Below are positions 7,611 through 32,017 of a stretch of DNA of 32,017 nt, in pieces; the first letter of the stretch is position 1, and each line of letters starts with the position of its first letter. Source of the stretch: Rhodothermia bacterium (GTDB lineage: Bacteria; Bacteroidota; Rhodothermia; Rhodothermales; JAAAOL01). The notes under the pieces are model-generated. The model saw only the letters and a program-made list of their open reading frames with translations. It ran no database searches and was not told the origin of the DNA. The position numbers and the translations under genes are program-made. The stretch covers positions 1 through 32,017 of the forward strand of contig JAUIDY010000069.1 of the NCBI GenBank assembly GCA_030428385.1, given 5' to 3'.

Positions 7611-8648
7611 TCAATACGTGGTAAGCAAACCGGTGACTTCCCGTACACGCTCCATAAATTGCTGGGCCTGCGCACGGCCATTTTCCCCACCCTCACGGAG
7701 TATGTCGAGGATGTAATCGGGGCGGGCCATCAGGTCGTGGTACCGTTCGCGGGCGTCTCCGAAGTAGGTGTTGATCATCCCTAGGAGGGCCTTCTTGGCA
7801 TGCCCGTAGCCATAGCCACCTGCCCGGTATGCGGCAGCGATTTCCTCCTGTTTGGCTTTGTCGGCAAAAAGTGTGATCAGGGCGAAGACGTTATCTTCGT
7901 CCGGGTCTTTCGGAGCCTCCAGCGGGGTTGAATCGGTGACAATACTCATCACCTTTTTCTTTAGGGCCTTGCCTTCGTCAAAGAGCCCAATGGTGTTGCC
8001 ATAACTCTTCGACATCTTCTTGCCATCAAGGCCGGGAACGATAGCGACGTTGTCGAGGATGTACGGCTCAGGGATGGGAAAGAGTGGGTCGTCTTCGGGG
8101 CAGAAGGTGTGGTTAAACCGCTGCGCGATATCCCGGGTCATTTCAATGTGCTGGCGCTGGTCGGCACCTACCGGCACCAGCGAGCCGCCATAGATAAGGA
8201 TGTCGGCAGCCTGCAACACCGGATAATTCAAGAGGCCCGCGTTAGGCGTAAGCCCCCGGTCGATTTTTTCTTTGTACGAAACCCCCAGTTCCAGCCGCGA
8301 TACGGGCACCAGGTTGTAGAAAATCCAGGCCAGCTCAGTCACTTCCGGCACATCACTCTGCAAAAACAGGTGGGCCTTGCTTGGGTCGAAGCCAAGGGCG
8401 AGATACGCAGCGGCTACGTGCAAGGTGTTTTGCCGCAGCGCCTCACGGTCGTGCAGGGTCGTCAGGGCGTGGTAGTTGACGATGAAATAATACGCCGGGT
8501 GCTGGGAGTGCAGCGCCAGATGCTGCCGAATCGCCCCGAAGTAGTTGCCGATATGCAACTCGCCGGAGGGCTGCACGCCCGAGACCACCGTGGTAGTGGC
8601 GGCGGATTCGGGAGTGGGTGATTCAAGCGTAGTGGCCAAGGTAGACAT
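7611..8648 (-). CDS. trpS: Tryptophanyl-tRNA synthetase
   Basis: Charges tRNA-Trp with tryptophan. The 345-residue class I synthetase has VSGVQPSGELHIGNYFGA (HIGH-type motif HIGN at residues 32-35), QSDVPEVTELAWI, NYPVLQAADIL, PVGADQRQHIEMTRDIA and the second signature KMSKS at 211-215. Length and motif spacing are normal. It sits between trpE (with one gene between) and trpG, inside the biosynthetic operon. It should therefore be under the same attenuator, which senses charged tRNA-Trp, the product of this enzyme. Confidence 0.96.
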   Translation of the reverse strand: MSTLATTLESPTPESAATTTVVSGVQPSGELHIGNYFGAIRQHLALHSQHPAYYFIVNYHALTTLHDREALRQNTLHVAAAYLALGFDPSKAHLFLQSDVPEVTELAWIFYNLVPVSRLELGVSYKEKIDRGLTPNAGLLNYPVLQAADILIYGGSLVPVGADQRQHIEMTRDIAQRFNHTFCPEDDPLFPIPEPYILDNVAIVPGLDGKKMSKSYGNTIGLFDEGKALKKKVMSIVTDSTPLEAPKDPDEDNVFALITLFADKAKQEEIAAAYRAGGYGYGHAKKALLGMINTYFGDARERYHDLMARPDYILDILREGGENGRAQAQQFMERVREVTGLLTTY

Positions 8649-8671
8649 AACAAGAAAAGCTGATCAGGTAC

Positions 8672-9157
8672 TTATTGTGCGGCTTCGCGGGGGCGATGGC
8701 GCCGTTTGGTTTGTTCGCGAAGAACTCCCAGTCGGGCTTCGCTGTTGGCGAGCACGTTGTTGATGATGGCTTCCGTCCGCAACTGGTGCGGCTGTGAAAG
8801 CTCCGCCTTCACCTCGTCATGAAACGCCCGTTCGCGGTCGAGCAGTTCGAACAGCATCGCGTCGTTGCTTGCATCAAGCGCATAATCGGTGGGATTCAAC
8901 GAAACCCCATTAAACGCGATGCCGCCGCAACTCAACACCGTTTCAGAAAGCTTGCCCACATCCATGCGGGCGGTCCGTTGCTGTTGCTTCAGCGCTGTGA
9001 CCACGTTGTCATCGGACAAATGGTTGATGGCGAAGCGGTACGCAAGGTTGAGCTTCAGGTGCGCCTCGATGATGGGGTTCAGGCGCGCAACGGTTTCCTT
9101 GCGTGACATCGAAGTGCCGATGCCGCCTTTCTGGAAGATGAGCCGCTTGATGGACAT
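8672..9157 (-). CDS. Unknown all-helical protein between trpE and trpS
   Basis: A 161-residue protein I do not recognise with certainty. It appears almost wholly helical, without signal peptide or membrane segment. Four amphipathic helices seem present: around VARLNPIIEAHLKLNLAYRFAI, NVVTALKQQQRTARMDVGKLSETV, FELLDRERAFHDEVKAEL and the C-terminal AIINNVLANSEARLGVL. The ERAFHDE segment and the break at VLSCGGIAFNG recall ferritin-like four-helix bundles such as DUF2383, but key metal ligands are not clearly conserved, so this is only a suggestion. Start ATG at 9157; a second ATG at 9109 is possible. It is on the same strand as trpE (121-base gap) and trpS (23-base gap), so it is probably co-transcribed. 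Confidence 0.7.
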   Translation of the reverse strand: MSIKRLIFQKGGIGTSMSRKETVARLNPIIEAHLKLNLAYRFAINHLSDDNVVTALKQQQRTARMDVGKLSETVLSCGGIAFNGVSLNPTDYALDASNDAMLFELLDRERAFHDEVKAELSQPHQLRTEAIINNVLANSEARLGVLREQTKRRHRPREAAQ

Positions 9158-9278
9158 GTGGGTCTAGGCTAGGTGGTTAGATTCAGGTGGTGCTCCAACG
9201 AAAGAGCGGATTTAGATGTTTTGTGGCGTATATCTAGAACGCGGTTTCAGACCTGCGATTCTGCTAAAACGTCATGAT

Positions 9279-23240: not shown

Positions 23241-23241
23241 G

Positions 23242-23316
23242 CGGTCCGGACGGGACTCGAACCCGCGACCTCCGGCGTGACAGGCCGGCGTTCTAACCAA
23301 ACTGAACTACCGGACC
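23242..23316 (-). tRNA. tRNA-Asp(GTC), copy 1
   Basis: 75 bases on the minus strand. The acceptor stem GGTCCGG pairs with CCGGACC without mismatch; D-arm TAGTTCAGTTTGGTTAGAA; anticodon arm CCGGC-CTGTCAC-GCCGG gives anticodon GTC (Asp); T-arm GCGGG-TTCGAGT-CCCGT; discriminator G as usual for tRNA-Asp. CCA is not encoded. Identical to the copy at 23393-23467. It is the last gene of the cluster, two bases from the terminator stem. Confidence 0.97.
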
Positions 23317-23392
23317 GCATAGGGTCTTCGAATGTAGGTGACAGCGTGACGGGCTGCAACCGTGCCTTATAAAAAAGGCGGAGAAACTGTTG

Positions 23393-23467
23393 CGGTCCGG
23401 ACGGGACTCGAACCCGCGACCTCCGGCGTGACAGGCCGGCGTTCTAACCAAACTGAACTACCGGACC
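23393..23467 (-). tRNA. tRNA-Asp(GTC), copy 2
   Basis: Same 75-base sequence as the first copy, including anticodon GTC and discriminator G; CCA not encoded. The two lie in tandem, 76 bases apart, with identity extending one to three bases beyond the tRNA on each side. This points to a tandem duplication maintained by selection or gene conversion. The spacer holds a short hairpin (GCCTT/AAGGC on the minus strand). Confidence 0.97.
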
Positions 23468-23486
23468 GCATTAAAAACAGTGTCGG

Positions 23487-23559
<73 letters not shown>

Positions 23560-23806
23560 AACAGGGCTTTTTGGTACCGTTTGGGCCGTTTTTCGTATGT
23601 CCCCGGTCTTTCGATCTGGGCTACCATACAAATAACATACAAAAGTACAAAAAAGAACCAGTCTGACTCGTTTGAGGCGGGTGCCAACGAATCACGAAGA
23701 CCCGTTGTTCCTTCTCGGTAGCTTCCGCACAAATCCACGAGCAGGGGCGAAATGATACCGACCATTTTGGTTTTTGACAATGCCTTGGGGCTGCTTTTGT
23801 GTTTCT
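23560..23806. other. Spacer between tRNA-Phe and integrase; likely left edge of the mobile element
   Basis: No convincing gene. It must hold the promoter of the tRNA cluster; on the minus strand TACTTTTG (about 23650-23643) fits the TAnnTTTG -7 element of Bacteroidota, but no matching -33 element was found, so this is weak. An element end (attL) would be expected here because the integrase gene stops at its right edge. I found no repeat of this stretch elsewhere in the window. Confidence 0.35.
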
Positions 23807-25054
23807 TCATACAATCCGGCTATTTGGACGAGCATAGGGAGGACCGAAGAAACCCAGTGCTTGGACTTCTTCCGCGAATGCCGTGTAGCGCTGCTCTACG
23901 TTCCTCCCAAGCATCGTTACCTTGAGGTGTCGGTACTGATCGGTCACACGGGTTGACCCATGACCGAGGACATCAGCTACAAACCCAATATCCCATCCCA
24001 GCATGACGAGCCACGAGGCGAACGTGTGGCGTGTCGCGGCATGAAAGTTAACGTCACTGATCCCCAGTCTCACGAGGCGCGACTTGATTCCATTGGAGAG
24101 TCGGTTGGTGTTGATCGGGCCGCCCTTTGCTCCGGTGAATAGGTAGTCGTCTTTGCTTTTCCCCGTGCTGTTGCGATCTACAACCCCTTCTGACATTTCG
24201 CAGAGCGGGACAATCCGTTCTCTCCGGCTCTTGGTTCTTCCCTCAGCCGTGTTCCTGACATACAGCACCCCACGGGCTGCTTGAACGTGGCCGACACGGA
24301 GCCGCCGTAATTCGTTGATCCGTAGTCCTGTACTTACTCCAAGCAGGAACGGATCTTTGAGCCACAGAATCACCTCATCGTGTACACCCCCACAGGCATA
24401 GTTTGTGGACTGGTAGGCATCAAAGTCCTCCTGTATTTGCTGAATGAGGCGTACAACGTCTTGGGGTTCCAAATGGTGTTTTAGGTCAACCTGTCCCTTC
24501 GGTGGGGTAACCCGTTTAAGTGGGTTTTGGGTCTCGTCCAGCAGGTTCTCCTTTACCCACCAATTAAAAGCAGCACGGAGCCTCGTAAACAAGCTACGTT
24601 GGTAAGCAGCCGATAGGTGGTCGCGGTAGATGAAGTTCTTTAGGTCGTCCGGTGTAACCTCAGAGAGTAGTTGCCGGTCGGTGTAGGAAGCTCCCAACTC
24701 TTTTAGGGTCTGTAGGTCGGTTCTCCGTGTCTCTGGTGAGATACCGGGGCGTTCGACATACCGGGTTATGGCATCCGAGAACAAGAAGTCCTGTGACGAT
24801 GATTCGTCCAGACTCTCCCACGGATCAAAGAGGCCCTGTAGATAAGGGACGGAGTATTCAGTCTGGAAGCGATTAATGATGTACGCTGGGGCTTCTTGTA
24901 GGGGATTGGAGAGCCTCTTCGTGGACTTGTATCCGATGTACACGTTCTTCTGCTTGGGCCGTTTTGCGGGGTTGTAGAAGCGTGCGTAGAGGTTGCCTGC
25001 GGGGTCTTGGTAGAGCTTCGGAGGGGATACTTTCTTTGGTTTGTGATTCATCAT
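23807..25054 (-). CDS. Tyrosine recombinase / phage-type integrase
   Basis: A 415-residue site-specific recombinase. The N-terminal arm (1-85) is basic and DNA-binding-like, the SAM-like core-binding domain spans about 90-180 (FLFSDAITRYVERPGISPETRRTDLQTL in pattern), and the catalytic domain follows. Active-site residues: Arg245 in GVSTGLRINELRRL, a Lys near 275 in EGRTKSRRER, Arg342 in HAATRHTFASW, His365 in LGHGSTRVTDQY and nucleophile Tyr374. The usual histidine three residues before the second arginine is alanine here, with a His one position further away (338), a variation. The gene points at tRNA-Phe. It should excise and integrate the element to its right. Confidence 0.92.
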   Translation of the reverse strand: MMNHKPKKVSPPKLYQDPAGNLYARFYNPAKRPKQKNVYIGYKSTKRLSNPLQEAPAYIINRFQTEYSVPYLQGLFDPWESLDESSSQDFLFSDAITRYVERPGISPETRRTDLQTLKELGASYTDRQLLSEVTPDDLKNFIYRDHLSAAYQRSLFTRLRAAFNWWVKENLLDETQNPLKRVTPPKGQVDLKHHLEPQDVVRLIQQIQEDFDAYQSTNYACGGVHDEVILWLKDPFLLGVSTGLRINELRRLRVGHVQAARGVLYVRNTAEGRTKSRRERIVPLCEMSEGVVDRNSTGKSKDDYLFTGAKGGPINTNRLSNGIKSRLVRLGISDVNFHAATRHTFASWLVMLGWDIGFVADVLGHGSTRVTDQYRHLKVTMLGRNVEQRYTAFAEEVQALGFFGPPYARPNSRIV

Positions 25055-25621
25055 TCAATCCAAATAGACTTACAGAGAGAGCGAAGCATCACCGCGAGCA
25101 GCGAGCTTCAAGGATGATTCTGTAAGTTCAGGATTAATAATGGTATAGGATTAAAGGCCGGAATGAAGAACGTCAGTAGGGTTCTTGTCGGTTTGAGAGT
25201 TCGATTGCACTCGTTTCAGGCGGTATGAGAGGTAGTAAAGGGGGCAAAATATGCGTTATTCGACAAACTGGGGGGGCTTTTGAGACGGCAGTTAAGGTTG
25301 TTAGTGAGAGTGGAGGGGGTTTTGAATCATCAGAGGCCCCCCTCGGCTGTTGGGGCGTGGATGGCTCACGGAGTAACTTGTTCTTCCCTATAGGCTCCCT
25401 AAAACGTCTAGGTGTGGAAGGGGGCTGAGTACATTTATCTATTCAGGAAACTTCAATACTCGACTGCGAACCGTGGTTTGGCTTTTTTTACCACTCACCG
25501 TGTAAGGTCTGAGGCATACGCTTTACACTCGGTATTTTGATGCTTAAGCTGTAGTTTAAGTGTCCGAGACTTGACCTGTTGTGAAGTAGGGGAATCGAAC
25601 TGGACGAACCAATCAATTACG
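25055..25621. other. 567-base divergent intergenic region of the element
   Basis: Lies between the integrase gene (leftward) and the restriction cassette (rightward) and should contain promoters for both. I see an inverted repeat right in front of the integrase (listed separately), G-runs near 25268-25320 with a 7-bp inverted repeat GAGGGGG/CCCCCTC, and a T-rich stretch near 25483-25489 flanked by GTGGT/ACCAC. A 67-codon ORF at 25225-25428 has biased glycine/serine content and no recognisable feature; I do not regard it as a gene. No clear sigma-A-type promoter could be fixed. Confidence 0.4.
25068..25127. repeat. Inverted repeat in the integrase 5' leader
   Basis: ACTTACAGA (25068-25076) and TCTGTAAGT (25119-25127) are perfect 9-base inverted repeats. 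Nested within them are GAAGC (25083-25087) and GCTTC (25105-25109). The unit begins 14 bases upstream of the integrase ATG, so it would fold in the mRNA leader or serve as a binding site for a dimeric regulator or the recombinase arm domain. Which of these applies is open. Confidence 0.55.
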
Positions 25622-25909
25622 ATGGCAACGTATCTACCAAGCAACGACTTAGAATACCATGAATGGCTCCGGCTTAACCCGGATGGGTTTGTAATCAACA
25701 TTCGTAGTTCACACAAGCCCGACTTGGCTGTTCTACATCGCTCCGATTGTTGGATGATGACCAAAGACCGTGATCCTGGTGCCTACACCGAACACAACTA
25801 CCGCAAGGTGTGTGCAGACACGAAGGATGAGTTAAGGAATTGGGTCAAAACATATCTTCGTCACGACGGCACTTTTTCAAAAGAGTGCTCTGTCTGTCGT
25901 CGCTCCTAA
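25622..25909 (+). CDS. Small restriction-associated protein of unknown function
   Basis: A 95-residue protein from the ATG at 25622 (MATYLPSND). The pattern YHEWLRLNPDGFVINIRSS, then LAVLHRSDCWMMT, resembles a domain often found in front of, or beside, HNH and other restriction endonucleases (a segment like NPxGYVIN followed by LHRAxC). This is recalled from the pattern and not verified. It ends with CSVCRRS; with the Cys in SDCW this could bind a metal. An earlier TTG at 25571 is in frame but adds atypical residues. Nine bases separate it from the next gene, so it is probably the first gene of the cassette. Confidence 0.68.
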   Translation: MATYLPSNDLEYHEWLRLNPDGFVINIRSSHKPDLAVLHRSDCWMMTKDRDPGAYTEHNYRKVCADTKDELRNWVKTYLRHDGTFSKECSVCRRS

Positions 25910-25918
25910 TACCTGAGA

Positions 25919-26899
25919 ATGATGGATCATATCCTCTTTGGCGAGAAGCTATTCACCCTCTACGAATACCAGAAAGAGGATGAGTTTGAGCGGCAGGTGG
26001 TGGCTCATGCACGGGCCATCTTCGGGCCTGACTCGCTCTACATCGACGTGAAGAAGCGTATCGGGGATAACATCGTAACCATACCGGACGGGTATCTCCT
26101 CGACTTCTCTTTTCCGCATGATCCGCGCCTATACATCATCGAAAACGAGCTAGTAAAGCACGACCCGTACCGACACATAGGGCAGCAGCTTCTCCGGTTT
26201 GCCATCTCCTACAAGGCCAGTGGACGACGGATAAAAGGGTTCCTGTTGGATGAGGTGATGAAGGACGCAGACACCCAGCGTTTTGTGGAGGAACGAGCGA
26301 AGTGGGCAGGGACACGTAACATTGATGCGTTCTTTGAGGAAGTCATCTTTGAGAAGCCCGTGGCGGCGATTGTGGTTATTGATGCCTCTACACCGGAGCT
26401 TGAAAACGTGCTGGCTCAACTGACGATGAATACCGACATCGTGGAGTTCAGAGCCTACCAGCACAAGGACGAACGGCTCCACCAGTTCACACCCTTCCAA
26501 CAGGAGGTGCGGGCAGAGTTCGACAACGGAAGTACCAAACCGGACATTAACGAACTCGATACCATTGTCGTACCTGCTAATGCAGAAGGCTTCAATGAGG
26601 TGTTTTTGGGTGAGGACTGTTGGTATGCCATTCGGATGTCCAGTTCGATGCTCGACAAGGTGCACTTCATTGCAGCCTATCAGACCGCGCCGATCTCTGC
26701 CATTACCCACTATGCGGAGGTTGCGAACATTGAGAAGTACAAAGACACCAACAAGTACATCGTGTATTTCAAGGAAACGGCCAAAGAGGTTGGGCCAATC
26801 AAGCTACCCAAGAACACGTCTGGCCTTGCTCCTCAAGCCCCACGGTATACTAGTGTCCGGCGGCTTTTAGCAGCCAAGACTATGAAAGACGTTTTCTAG
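25919..26899 (+). CDS. PD-(D/E)XK nuclease-like protein of the restriction cassette
   Basis: A 326-residue soluble protein. The N-terminal part resembles a restriction-nuclease fold: Glu22 in EDEFERQV, then IPDGYLLDF (Asp57), then the strand LYIIENEL (Glu75, Asn76, Glu77), followed by the helix [19 protein letters not shown]. The usual Lys of the ExK motif is replaced by Glu, so activity is uncertain; it could be a divergent nuclease (NucS/DUF91-like) or an inactivated, DNA-binding relative. The C-terminal half (from about 215, [32 protein letters not shown], in pattern) looks like a separate alpha/beta domain I do not recognise. It lies nine bases after the 95-residue gene and 23 bases before the MmeI-like gene. 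Confidence 0.72.
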
Positions 26900-26922
26900 C
26901 GTTGGCCAATTACCCTCTCTCT

Positions 26923-29900
26923 ATGGACCCCACAACTTTTATCGAACGCTGGCGGGCTTCTGGTGCGTCGGAGCGGGCCAACTACGCCCTCTTTCTCACC
27001 GAGCTTTGCGACGTGTTGGGCGTGGATCATCCCGACCCGGCTTCCGATGCCTCAGCGGAGAATGCCTACACGTTTGAGCGGGTGGTGACGTTCAGAGAAG
27101 GCGACAAAAACACATCGGGGTTTATCGACCTGTACCGCCGGGGATGCTTCGTCTTGGAGGCCAAGCAGGGCAGCGACCCCGTAACCGAGACCGAGCGGGC
27201 CAAGCTGGGCCTTGACACCGTAGGCCGCAAGACCGGGCATGGCAAACGCGGGAAGCGGGTGTGGGAGCGAACGATGGAACGGGCCAAGAACCAAGCCTTT
27301 CGCTACGCCCGCGCCTTGCCCCCTGACGATGGGTGGCCGCCGTTCCTTGTCGTGGTGGATGTGGGCTACTGCTTCGACCTCTACGCCGACTTTTCAAGGC
27401 AGGGCAAGCACTACGTTCCCTTTCCCGATCCCCAGCGATACCGGGTTAAGCTGGACGACTTGGACAAGGAGGACGTACTGGGCCTACTCCGGCAACTCTG
27501 GACCGACCCGATGCAGCTAGACCCGGCACGGCGCAGCGCACGGGTGACACGGACACTGGCAACCCGGCTGGCGAAGCTGGCAGCCTCGCTGGAAGAGGCA
27601 GGCCATGAGCCCGACACCGTGGCCCAGTTCCTCATGCGGTGCCTCTTCACCATGTTTGCAGAGGACGTGGGGCTTTTGCCGGAACGGGGCTTCACCCGGC
27701 TCCTCACGGACTATCAGGGCAGCTTGGAACATCTACCGAAGGCCCTTACCGCGCTGTGGAAGGTGATGGATCAAGGCGGCTTCTCGCCGAGCCTACGGAG
27801 TGATGTGGTGCAGTTCAACGGCAAACTCTTCGCTGGGGCCGAGGCGATCACGCTGTCAGAGGCCCAGCTAGACCTGCTGATTGAGGCGGCACGGGCCGAC
27901 TGGAAGGACGTGGAGCCTGCCATCTTCGGGACGCTCTTGGAGCGGGCGCTGGACCCACGGGAGCGGCACCGCTTGGGGGCACACTACACGCCAAGGGCCT
28001 ACGTGGAACGGCTGGTGATGCCTACGGTCATTGAACCGCTCAGGGAGGAATGGGTGGCAACGCAGGCAGCGGCACTCCTGCGGGAAGAGGAACGGGACGA
28101 GGCAGCAGCACGGGCCGAAATCGAAGCGTTCCACAAACGCCTCTGTAGCGTGCGGGTCCTTGATCCTGCCTGTGGGTCGGGAAATTTCCTTTTCGTCGTC
28201 CTGGAGCATCTCAAACGCTTGGAAGCAGAGGTGCTGCTGGTGCTGGACAGCTACGCGGGGCAGACGACGCTGGACATGACGGGTGGCTACCGGGTGACAC
28301 CGGAGCAACTTTTGGGGCTAGAGATCAACCCACGGGCGGCAGCGATAGCCGATGTAGTGCTGTGGATCGGGTACCTGCAATGGCACTTCCGCACGTATGG
28401 CGATGCCCAGCGCCTCGATGCGCCGATCTTGAAGGAATACAAGAACATACGGTTGCAGGATGCAGTGCTGGCCTACGACGAGCGCAAACCGCGTCTGGAC
28501 GAAGCAGGAGAGCCCGTGACGCGGTGGGACGGGCAGACGATGAAGGTACACCCGGCGACGGGGGAGGAGGTGCCGGATGAGACCGCACAAACCCCGGTGT
28601 ATGACTACACAAACCCGCGTCCGGCGGAATGGCCCGAAGCGGAATACATCGTGGGAAACCCGCCGTTCATTGGTCCAGCACGCATGCGGGAAGCGCTGGG
28701 AGATGGATACACAGAGGCGCTAAGAGAGGCATACAAAGGCGAAGTGGGCGACAGTTCAGACTTGGTTATTTACTGGTGGCACAAGGCGGCAGTATACGTG
28801 AGGAAAGGGAAGGCCCAGCGCTTCGGATTCATTGCCACGAACAGTTTGCGGCAGACGTTTAACCGCCGAGTGTTGCAGGCGCACATGGAGGCCAAGAAAC
28901 CGCTCTCGTTGGTGTATGCCGTGCCGGACCACCCTTGGGTAGACAGCGCGGACGGGGCAGCAGTGCGAATTTCGATGACGGTGGGGGAAGCAGGCAAACA
29001 CGAAGGGCGATTGCAGACTGTCACCAGCGAGGCTCGCACCGATGAACTAGGGCGGAAAGTCGAGCTATCCGAACGCCGGGGGATGATACAGGCCGATTTG
29101 CGGATCGGGGCAGACCTTGATAGTGCAAACCCCCTCATGGCGAATCAGAACCTTACCAGTCGAGGCGTGATGCTATTCGGCAAAGGCTTCATCGTCACAC
29201 CAGAAGAGGCGGTAAAGCTGGGATTTGGGACCGTAGAGGGGTTAGAGAAGCACATCCGTCCTTATCGCAATGGGCGCGACCTGACCAGCACCCCGCGAGG
29301 TGTGATGGTAATTGACTTGTTCGGGTTGAAGGCCAAACAGGTGCGAGACAAATATCCAGCGGTGTACCAGTGGATGTATGAGCGGGTGAAACCGGAACGT
29401 GACGCGAACCGAAACAAGTCAATACGGGAAAACTGGTGGATACATGGACGACCGCGTTCAGAGATCCGACCCGCACTGGCGGGACTGCCCCGGTACATCG
29501 CCACGGTCGAAACGTCCAAGCATACATTCTTCCAGTTCCTCGATGCGTCGATTCTGCCGGATAACAAGCTCTTGGCGATTGCGCTGGATGATGCGTACCA
29601 CTTGGGCGTCTTGTCGAGCCACATTCATGTGACCTGGGCTCTTGCGACAGGAAGCCGTCTTGTAGATCGTCCGGTGTATGTGAAGACACAATGTTTTGAG
29701 CCCTTCCCGTTTCCAGATGCGACGGCCAAGCAGCAAGCTCGTATCCGGCAGCTAGGCGAGACGCTGGACACCCACCGCAAGAACCGCCTCGCCGCCCATG
29801 ACAAACTCACCATGACCGAACTGTACAACGTCATGGAGAAGCTACGCGCCGGGGAGCCGCTCACCAAGAAAGACCAACGTACCAACGAACAAGGACTCGT

Positions 29901-30345
29901 CTCCGTCCTGCTACAGATCCACAATGAGCTAGACGCTGCGGTAGCCGACGCCTATGGTTGGCCCACCGACCTTGCAGATGACGAAATCCTAGCGCGTCTG
30001 GTAGCCCTCAACCACGAACGCGCCGCCGAGGAAGCTGCCGGGTTCATCCGGTACCTGCGCCCGTCCTACCAGCACCCGGAAGGGGTCCAGACCGAACTGG
30101 TACCGGGTGTCACAGCCACTACAACCAGCACCAGCCAGCGCGAGAAGGAGGACTGGCCCAAAGACCTGCCCGACCAGATGAAGGCCATCCACCGCATCCT
30201 CGCCGCCGAAGACCGCCCCGCCACCACCGAGCAGGTAGCCAGCCGCTTCCACCGGGCACCCCGCAAGCAGGTAGCAATGCTGCTGGACACCCTCACCGCG
30301 ATAGGGCTGGCTCGCCTTACCGAGACCGGGGGGTATACCGGATAA
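26923..30345 (+). CDS. MmeI-type (type IIL) restriction-methylation enzyme
   Basis: A 1,140-residue single-chain enzyme that should cut DNA and protect it by adenine N6 methylation. The N-terminal nuclease shows Asp69 and Glu79-Ala-Lys81 (D-x9-ExK), nearly the same spacing and position as in MmeI. A helical linker ends with [16 protein letters not shown]. The methylase has motif [13 protein letters not shown] (Asp414 onward) and motif IV NPPF at 579-582, as in gamma-class N6-adenine enzymes. The target-recognition region follows (about 720-920), then a helical part and a C-terminal winged-helix-like segment (about 1075-1130). ATG 26923 fits MmeI best; a TTG at 26902 is in frame. One 60-base line of this gene (27241-27300) counts 62% G+C versus 43% in one line of the next gene, which suggests mosaic origin. 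Confidence 0.93.
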
Positions 30346-30434: not shown

Positions 30435-32017
30435 ATGGATAAACCCATCCACAGTACCTTCATAAAACCTTCACGGTCGGGCATTTTGGCAAACCTCCCA
30501 ACGGAGCCGGAAGGGTCAAACAGGCAGGAAGGTCCGGAGAGTTCCGGGGTCCCTGTACCGTTCCCTAGCTTTGAGGACACCCCCCTTTTTGTACCGAAAT
30601 GGCGGAAAAAAGGCCAAAAAAAGCGAAAAAAGGCCGATTCTGAGAAAAGGCGTTCAGCTCGTGGGAAAGAGTACGCTAAGAATAGTGTACAGTACGAACT
30701 CCACGGAATGGGGTGGTTGGATCAGGTAACGTGTATGCCAGAAGCACGGACGCGCATACTCGACCTGTATCCCGGTTTAGAGTTGGACGGGGGGCATCGT
30801 CGTTTCTTTCTGTATCTGCTTATGACTTCCTTTTACGACGAATACAGTAATCAGCCTGTGATTCCCCAAGAAGTCATTGCTGGATGCTATGGGATGCTGG
30901 CACAATGCAAGGCCAAGAATTTAAAAACGGGGGCATTGCTTAGGGCATTTAGAGACGAAGCATTTGAAGGGTTTAATTGGTCGTCACATGAGTACTCGAA
31001 CCGTAGAGCCCGCGTCGCATTTCTCGACAAACTATCCCCAGAAGTCTGGAGCGTATGGGAAGAAAGTCGGACAGCAATTCTAAGCGGTGTCACAGAACAA
31101 AAGATATGTTTTGTTTCAGGCAGGAAGTTAGTAGTTGTTGACCAACCGAGAAAACATGGTCCTCTTAGTTTGGCCGAAAAGGCAGGTGAAGAAGCTGCTC
31201 CAACAACCACTATTGATACAGTGACGCTTGGTACCTGCCCAGAAAGCCTCAGATGGATAAGCTATCTCCACGAACGACCTATACGAGCTTACGATTATGT
31301 AGCCAAACAGGTAAAAACAGCATTTGAGGTAGCAGAAGAAAAGTTCACTGGATTGAGGAAGAAGCAGGCGCTCGACTCACTGTTGGTAATACTGGATTTC
31401 CCCAAACCACGCTATGTCCAGTGTGAGGATTCTGTCCGGTTGAAGTCAGTGAGGCCCTCTTTGCAGGGAATAGACAAGGAGCTTCGGGCCATTCTTACAG
31501 ATAAATGGGTCGAATGTGATTTGAAATCAGCCCAACTTGCCATTGTCGCCACAGAATGGGAGCTACCCATTACCTTTGAATTTTTGAAAGGTGGGGCGAG
31601 CATTTGGGAGGAATTAGGAAATCACATGGAGTTGGTGGATGGAAAGGACGCGCTCAAGAAAGGGGTATATTCGACAGTGTATGGTGCCGGAAAGTCGAAG
31701 ATCAAAGCAAATATGGACGAAGAGTACATAAAGCGTCATGGCAAGTCCATAGAGCCCGACGTACTGGATAGATTCTTTACCCATCTCATCATTGATGAGG
31801 TACTAGAAGCCCGGAAAAAACGCCTTGCGAGGATTGAAGCAAATGGGGGTGCAAGAGACTGTTTTGGACAGTGGCTACCGCTAGATCGGGGAAGAAAAGA
31901 GCGGTTTAGGAAAGAACGATCAAGGTCCATTTTGGCCCAGCTATCACAAGCCAGCGAAATGGATTTATTGTCGCCTGTGCTTGATATGGCAATCGCAGAA
32001 GACCGGAAACGTGTTGA
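30435..32017 (+). CDS. Divergent family A DNA polymerase-like protein, 3' end outside window
   Basis: Open from base 30411 to the window end without a stop; ATG at 30435 chosen (at least 527 residues), ATG 30708 is the main alternative. The C-terminal half matches the polymerase palm and fingers of family A. Motif A is ECDLKSAQLAIVA (Asp362). The O-helix, motif B, is K404-x3-K408-x3-Y412-x3-Y416-G417, the same spacing as Arg659, Lys663, Phe667, Tyr671 and Gly672 of Taq polymerase. Then comes DCFGQWLPL, like the fGRrR loop, and QASEMDLL (Gln505, Asp510), like QGTAADL. Motif C (HDE) would lie just beyond the window. The first 270 or more residues match no 3'-5' or 5'-3' exonuclease I know; residues about 50-75 are very basic. 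Probably the replication protein of the mobile element. Confidence 0.78.
   Translation, partial: MDKPIHSTFIKPSRSGILANLPTEPEGSNRQEGPESSGVPVPFPSFEDTPLFVPKWRKKGQKKRKKADSEKRRSARGKEYAKNSVQYELHGMGWLDQVTCMPEARTRILDLYPGLELDGGHRRFFLYLLMTSFYDEYSNQPVIPQEVIAGCYGMLAQCKAKNLKTGALLRAFRDEAFEGFNWSSHEYSNRRARVAFLDKLSPEVWSVWEESRTAILSGVTEQKICFVSGRKLVVVDQPRKHGPLSLAEKAGEEAAPTTTIDTVTLGTCPESLRWISYLHERPIRAYDYVAKQVKTAFEVAEEKFTGLRKKQALDSLLVILDFPKPRYVQCEDSVRLKSVRPSLQGIDKELRAILTDKWVECDLKSAQLAIVATEWELPITFEFLKGGASIWEELGNHMELVDGKDALKKGVYSTVYGAGKSKIKANMDEEYIKRHGKSIEPDVLDRFFTHLIIDEVLEARKKRLARIEANGGARDCFGQWLPLDRGRKERFRKERSRSILAQLSQASEMDLLSPVLDMAIAEDRKRV
30605..30635 (+). repeat. Two direct 11-base repeats, iteron-like
   Basis: GAAAAAAGGCC occurs at 30605-30615 and 30625-30635, a 20-base period (about two helical turns), with AAAAAAAGC between. 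If translation of the polymerase-like gene starts at 30435 the repeats encode a lysine-rich stretch; if it starts at 30708 they are non-coding and would resemble origin iterons or a bent A-tract region. Confidence 0.5.

Follow-up and report, generated by a model that had tools for sequence, protein, structure and literature searches.

The window analysed here, a stretch of 32,017 nucleotides from a Rhodothermia bacterium that comprises the entire contig C44, ends within a gene whose product resembles a family A DNA polymerase. The locus raises the question of what kind of polymerase this is and what it does in the company of an integrase gene. A preliminary description had proposed a divergent family A enzyme carried by an integrative element.

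An integrative element in tRNA-Phe

The polymerase gene was described as running off the right edge of the window, and its reading frame is indeed interrupted by the contig end only. The C-terminus of the protein (GFSIKFRRTVYKQHLRRIKNAVKQKADELNICTRLECTVDGREV-stop) starts at base 2 of another contig of the same genome, C93, where the last 44 codons occupy C93:2-136. This 44-residue segment matched the family profile with an hmmsearch E of 2e-4, its alignment following on immediately from the Asp of motif C. By profile estimate, about 11 codons are missing between C44 and C93. This assembly gap takes in the codon for the motif C Asp in the window copy, of which the last base, C, alone is visible. 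An exact 51-bp direct repeat is found on both contigs, as attL in the window and as attR at C93:295-345, and the repeat core occurs in two copies only in the 6.19 Mb genome. Based on the profile match and the att sites, not on reads, we infer that C44 and C93 carry two parts of one element of ~8.9 kb. The predicted element is a complete integrative element in tRNA-Phe, most of which is located in the window (Table 1).

The integrase gene and the att repeats bear out the proposal that the polymerase belongs to an integrative element. The more specific placement of the integrase beside the polymerase holds in part, as an integrase is present, but the type IIL restriction-modification gene, together with two smaller ORFs, separates it from the polymerase. 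The restriction-modification protein matches PF20473 (E 3.3e-32), PF20464 (E 2.7e-23) and the PADLOC model REase_MTase_IIG (1580 bits); it has the same domains as MmeI-like type IIL enzymes and represents ordinary cargo in which nothing unusual was found. On visual inspection, the 326-aa protein encoded upstream of it could be a nuclease of the PD-(D/E)XK type.

Next to the target tRNA-Phe gene are two genes for tRNA-Asp (GTC), separated by about 150 bp (23241-23467). A tRNA search of C93:1-8000 returned none, including at attR. To look for an empty site, homologues of the C93 flanking gene were located in relatives; none was adjacent to a tRNA, a result that is uninformative because these relatives are distant. 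Neither an excised circle nor an empty site was seen.

Table 1 Features of the tRNA-Phe element located in the window.
Feature	Coordinates	Strand	Evidence or remark
tRNA-Phe (GAA), integration target	23485..23559	-	ARAGORN; intact at this end
attL, 51-bp direct repeat over 5' part of tRNA-Phe	23516..23566	.	Exact repeat
Tyrosine recombinase (integrase)	23807..25054	-	PF00589 E 5.6e-26; homologues beside polymerase at seven other loci
Small ORF	25571..25909	+	Weak DUF6233 match, below cut-off
326-aa protein directly upstream of restriction-modification gene	25919..26899	+	No Pfam or PADLOC match
MmeI-like single-chain type IIL/IIG restriction-modification enzyme, defence cargo	26902..30345	+	MmeI domains
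Family A DNA polymerase-like ORF	30435..32017	+	Starts with ATG at 30435; 527 codons, open to contig end
Motif A, DLKSAQLAIVA	31518..31550	+	Catalytic D362; Q367 at steric-gate position
Motif B, K404-x3-K408-x3-Y412-x3-Y416-G417	31644..31685	+	K404, K408 and G417 invariant in alignment
Q505-A-S-E508 helix	31947..31958	+	Position of Pol I QGTAAD helix

Assignment of the polymerase to family A

By family profile, predicted fold and motif order, the window protein is a divergent family A DNA polymerase, as had been proposed. The outcome of profile searches depended on the query. On its own, the 527-aa fragment gave no usable match against Pfam, PHROGs or the PDB, and the small PDB matches of the single-sequence search are attributable to chance. 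A profile of 16 family members compared with PDB sequences did match Taq Pol I (E 1.4e-5) in an alignment that superimposed motifs A, B and C, and all of its matches at E<1 were family A DNA polymerases. A profile search as a decisive check on the assignment, which the preliminary description had suggested, is therefore negative for the single sequence against Pfam and positive for the family. Against the curated Pfam cut-off of 34.3 bits for PF00476, the window protein had no match and the best relative reached 17.3 bits, so that no scanned member exceeded the cut-off; one relative matched this Pfam family (DNA_pol_A) at E 0.0023, likewise below cut-off. Among the NCBIfam and PHROGs models, searched with 10 members each, none gives a name to this family.

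Profile-profile comparison using hhalign aligned the family with Pol I and phage PolA at 96.6% (E 5e-10) and with T7-type RNA polymerases at 0.3%. The latter value has little power to exclude kinship with RNA polymerases, because the Pol I control likewise failed to match the same RNA polymerases; T7-type RNA polymerases are also absent among the fold matches listed, an absence that does not exclude them. For the predicted model of the homologue at L030, 50 of the 50 Foldseek matches listed are family A DNA polymerases, and the matches listed for the window protein model are from the same families. The VIA structure comparison yielded Z values of up to 13.1, the highest being with Pol theta at an rmsd of 4.2 over 261 residues. 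The models were built from shallow alignments of 3 sequences, with a mean pLDDT of 54 for a complete relative and 45 for the window protein. For the N-terminal half, only low-confidence models were obtained, and in this half no Pfam match was found and no exonuclease domain was recognised.

In common with the Pol I and phage T7-type enzymes of family A (PF00476), the family has the predicted catalytic-domain fold (fingers and palm), motifs A, B and C in the same order and with the same spacing, a conserved Arg before motif A and the Q-helix. It differs from them in its Pfam scores below cut-off, in the loss of the steric-gate Glu and in the replacement of DE by DG in motif C of most members; as noted, an exonuclease domain was not recognised in the N-terminal half, for which the models are of low confidence. 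In the tree, Pol I and phage PolA fall outside the family, which forms one clade (100/100). The source genome also encodes its own Pol I, on contig C214.

Conserved residues and integrity of the gene

The preliminary description had recognised motif A, motif B and a Q-helix in the order and spacing of family A polymerases. Residues D362, K404, K408, Y412, Y416-G417, Q505, E508 and D510 were confirmed in place, and many of them are invariant in homologues. In an alignment of the window protein with nine homologues from other genomes, the invariant positions include P325, Y327, R335, D362, W375, W391, K404, K408, G417, R460, G478, Q505 and E508, which argues that the motif spacing is not due to chance. 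All 16 members share the catalytic Asp of motif A. The motif B pattern (R/K)-x3-K-x3-(F/Y)-x3-(Y/F)-G is satisfied by the window protein; its first basic residue is absent in the alignment from L046a, L048 and L033, and in L020 the F/Y position is occupied by His. All 15 relatives whose sequence extends to motif C have its Asp. An HDE motif had been expected in the completed C-terminus; the relatives mostly read HDG, with YDE in two members.

These data also bear on whether the gene might be a decayed, Pol I-like relic without function. Such a relic could explain why the single-sequence Pfam search gave no family A match and why the identity of the window protein to other members is only 20-30%. 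Against this, the homologues are open reading frames, the motif A and motif C Asp residues are retained as described above and the family forms a deep clade with a conserved core, so that we consider a relic highly improbable. With its homologues open and its own missing C-terminus and stop codon located on C93, the gene does not look decayed.

Recurrence with variable defence cargo

Five further elements were identified between repeats of a tRNA gene, giving six bounded elements together with the one in the window. Their targets are tRNA-Leu (L012, ~9.4 kb; L013, ~6.1 kb; L017, ~14.7 kb), tRNA-Lys (L033, ~6.6 kb) and tRNA-Arg (G021, ~19.7 kb). The bounds of L017 are less sure because the repeats enclose an intein-containing DnaE-like gene; this DNA polymerase III alpha-like gene (L017:4487-7927, G023:C1) is either cargo or a sign of wrong bounds. 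Counting the window, eight loci have a homologous integrase beside the polymerase.

All six bounded elements contain a match to a PADLOC model, a raw count given with no background rate. The cargo set consists of a type IIL restriction-modification enzyme, PDC-S32 (a candidate system), an AriAB-like protein, a type II methyltransferase, an Mrr-like protein and SIR2 with a short prokaryotic Argonaute (pAgo), of which a lone methyltransferase is only a weak indication of defence. The SIR2-domain protein and the short Argonaute form a SPARSA-like pair (L014:5860-9038) inside the tRNA-Arg element of G021. The AriAB-like (PARIS-type) protein is encoded by a single gene (L013:10255-11925) and is the sole recognised cargo of its ~6.1-kb element. 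Integrase and polymerase are the constant parts, and the defence gene varies between elements. The layout that recurs is that of a predicted integrase and polymerase with a differing putative defence gene between tRNA-gene repeats.

Plasmid-like copies of the polymerase were found as well. On a 39.8-kb contig, the polymerase ORF runs off one end and resumes at the other, as it would in a circular molecule, and lies directly beside ParA, with a type I restriction-modification system also adjacent. No known replication initiator was detected among the scanned ORFs of this contig; a 564-aa protein with a weak winged-helix match could be one. A 55-kb plasmid-like contig (L018:3563-8802) carries the BREX genes brxA, brxB and brxC beside the polymerase. 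Contig G441:C173 (L046:723-13477) encodes two diverged polymerases of the family, an RPA-type initiator, ParA and a tyrosine recombinase. The RPA initiator co-occurs with the polymerase on this contig only and was rejected as a general partner; together with ParA it indicates that the task of initiation need not fall to the polymerase in every case. At L047, a DnaQ-like 3'-5' exonuclease (8539-9213; PF00929 E 7e-12) is encoded between integrase and polymerase and possibly proofreads in trans. Iterons were searched for near the polymerase genes, and none were found. Inspection of the 6-kb elements, in which part of the ORFs were scanned, revealed no other obvious replication gene, and no primase was noticed.

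Distribution of the polymerase family

The family was detected in 8 of 60 genomes searched and, using the family profile, in 12 of 114 genomes of the source order, the source genome being counted in both cases. Among 394 genomes sampled across the phylum, the profile matched in seven, all from the source order. Outside the order, a full-length homologue annotated as 'hypothetical protein' is located on plasmid pDEIPE01 of Deinococcus peraridilitoris, the one record matched among plasmid records. A profile scan of genome contigs matched two loci of one of the genomes already counted, recorded there as Bacteroidetes bacterium isolate UWMA-0293. A phage or virus origin was considered and rejected, there being no match in phage records or in three scans of viral contigs.

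Proposed role of the polymerase

We consider it rather likely that the polymerase serves to copy the element in its excised or episomal form, which would make these systems a family A counterpart of pipolins and their family B polymerase (PolB). This reading builds on the constancy of integrase and polymerase next to variable cargo, on the smallest elements, in which no other replication gene was noticed, and on the DnaQ-like exonuclease at L047 and the ParA neighbour on a plasmid-like copy. The integrase would excise the element as a circle, which the polymerase would then copy, so that the element would not depend on host Pol I or the host replisome alone. The defence gene would be the host's reason for keeping the element.

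Alternatively, the polymerase could itself be cargo, namely a repair, gap-filling or anti-phage enzyme that serves the host or the neighbouring restriction-modification system and takes no part in replicating the element. It does travel with defence genes, and a role in defence has been described for unusual polymerases, Abi reverse transcriptases being an example (PMC11077055). Against this, the polymerase stays with the integrase throughout while the defence genes change from element to element; it is also found beside ParA on a plasmid-like contig, and we judge this explanation to be quite unlikely.

The reading that we prefer also takes in the steric gate. The Glu at this position (E. coli E710, Taq E615) is replaced in all 16 members, by Gln in 11 and by His in five. 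In Taq, E615G raises ribonucleotide use when combined with other mutations (PMC4215692). With this precedent and the replaced Glu as its basis, the use of ribonucleotides or self-priming by the polymerase family is put forward purely as a hypothesis. Gln or His at the gate may relax sugar selection and permit ribonucleotide use, and the enzyme might then extend RNA-rich primers or make its own. A rival division of labour, drawing on the replaced Glu and the Taq precedent, would have the enzyme act mainly as a primase that starts replication of the element by making RNA or mixed primers for the host replisome, which would also fit the small elements, where no primase was noticed on inspection. 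The effect of Gln or His is predicted here from sequence alone, and the proofreading-type exonuclease beside the polymerase gene at L047 suggests longer DNA synthesis; a role chiefly as primase is therefore unlikely in our assessment.

Copying of the element by the polymerase, the reading we prefer, can be extended to a more far-reaching version in which primer-independent family A polymerases ('piPolA') both prime and copy small integrative elements. They would represent an independent family A solution to the task of piPolB, the primer-independent family B polymerase of pipolins, with the lost Glu permitting ribonucleotide starts. We regard this version, in all its parts, as doubtful but worth stating.

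Relation to known mobile elements

Among known elements, pipolins come closest. They integrate between att direct repeats located in a tRNA gene, encode a polymerase of their own and a tyrosine recombinase, carry varying cargo that includes restriction-modification components and occasionally occur as plasmids (PMC7385651). The elements described here have all of these traits in common with pipolins, but are not pipolins, since their polymerase belongs to family A and not to the primer-independent family B, and self-priming is hypothetical in their case. Replication proteins of other kinds from plasmids and integrative elements (RepA, AEP primase-polymerases) resemble the present family in their position beside an integrase or ParA and as the sole replication-like gene noticed on the smallest elements; they differ in belonging to an unrelated polymerase family, and no iterons were found here. 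A literature search, with most subscription journals beyond its scope, returned no description of such elements. To our knowledge, the integrative elements so far described as encoding a replicative DNA polymerase of their own, namely pipolins, casposons and polintons, use family B enzymes.

The findings suggest a mobile element that copies itself and is of a type about which little is known. Elements built on a family A enzyme, with att sites in tRNA genes and exchangeable defence genes, would demonstrate that this way of life also arose with a polymerase of another family, and they would add a deep, unnamed branch to family A. They would also make it possible to test directly if an enzyme of family A can self-prime without the steric-gate Glu. 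Given their defence cargo (restriction-modification, AriAB-like, SIR2-pAgo and, on a plasmid-like contig, BREX), these elements would be worth mining for anti-phage systems.
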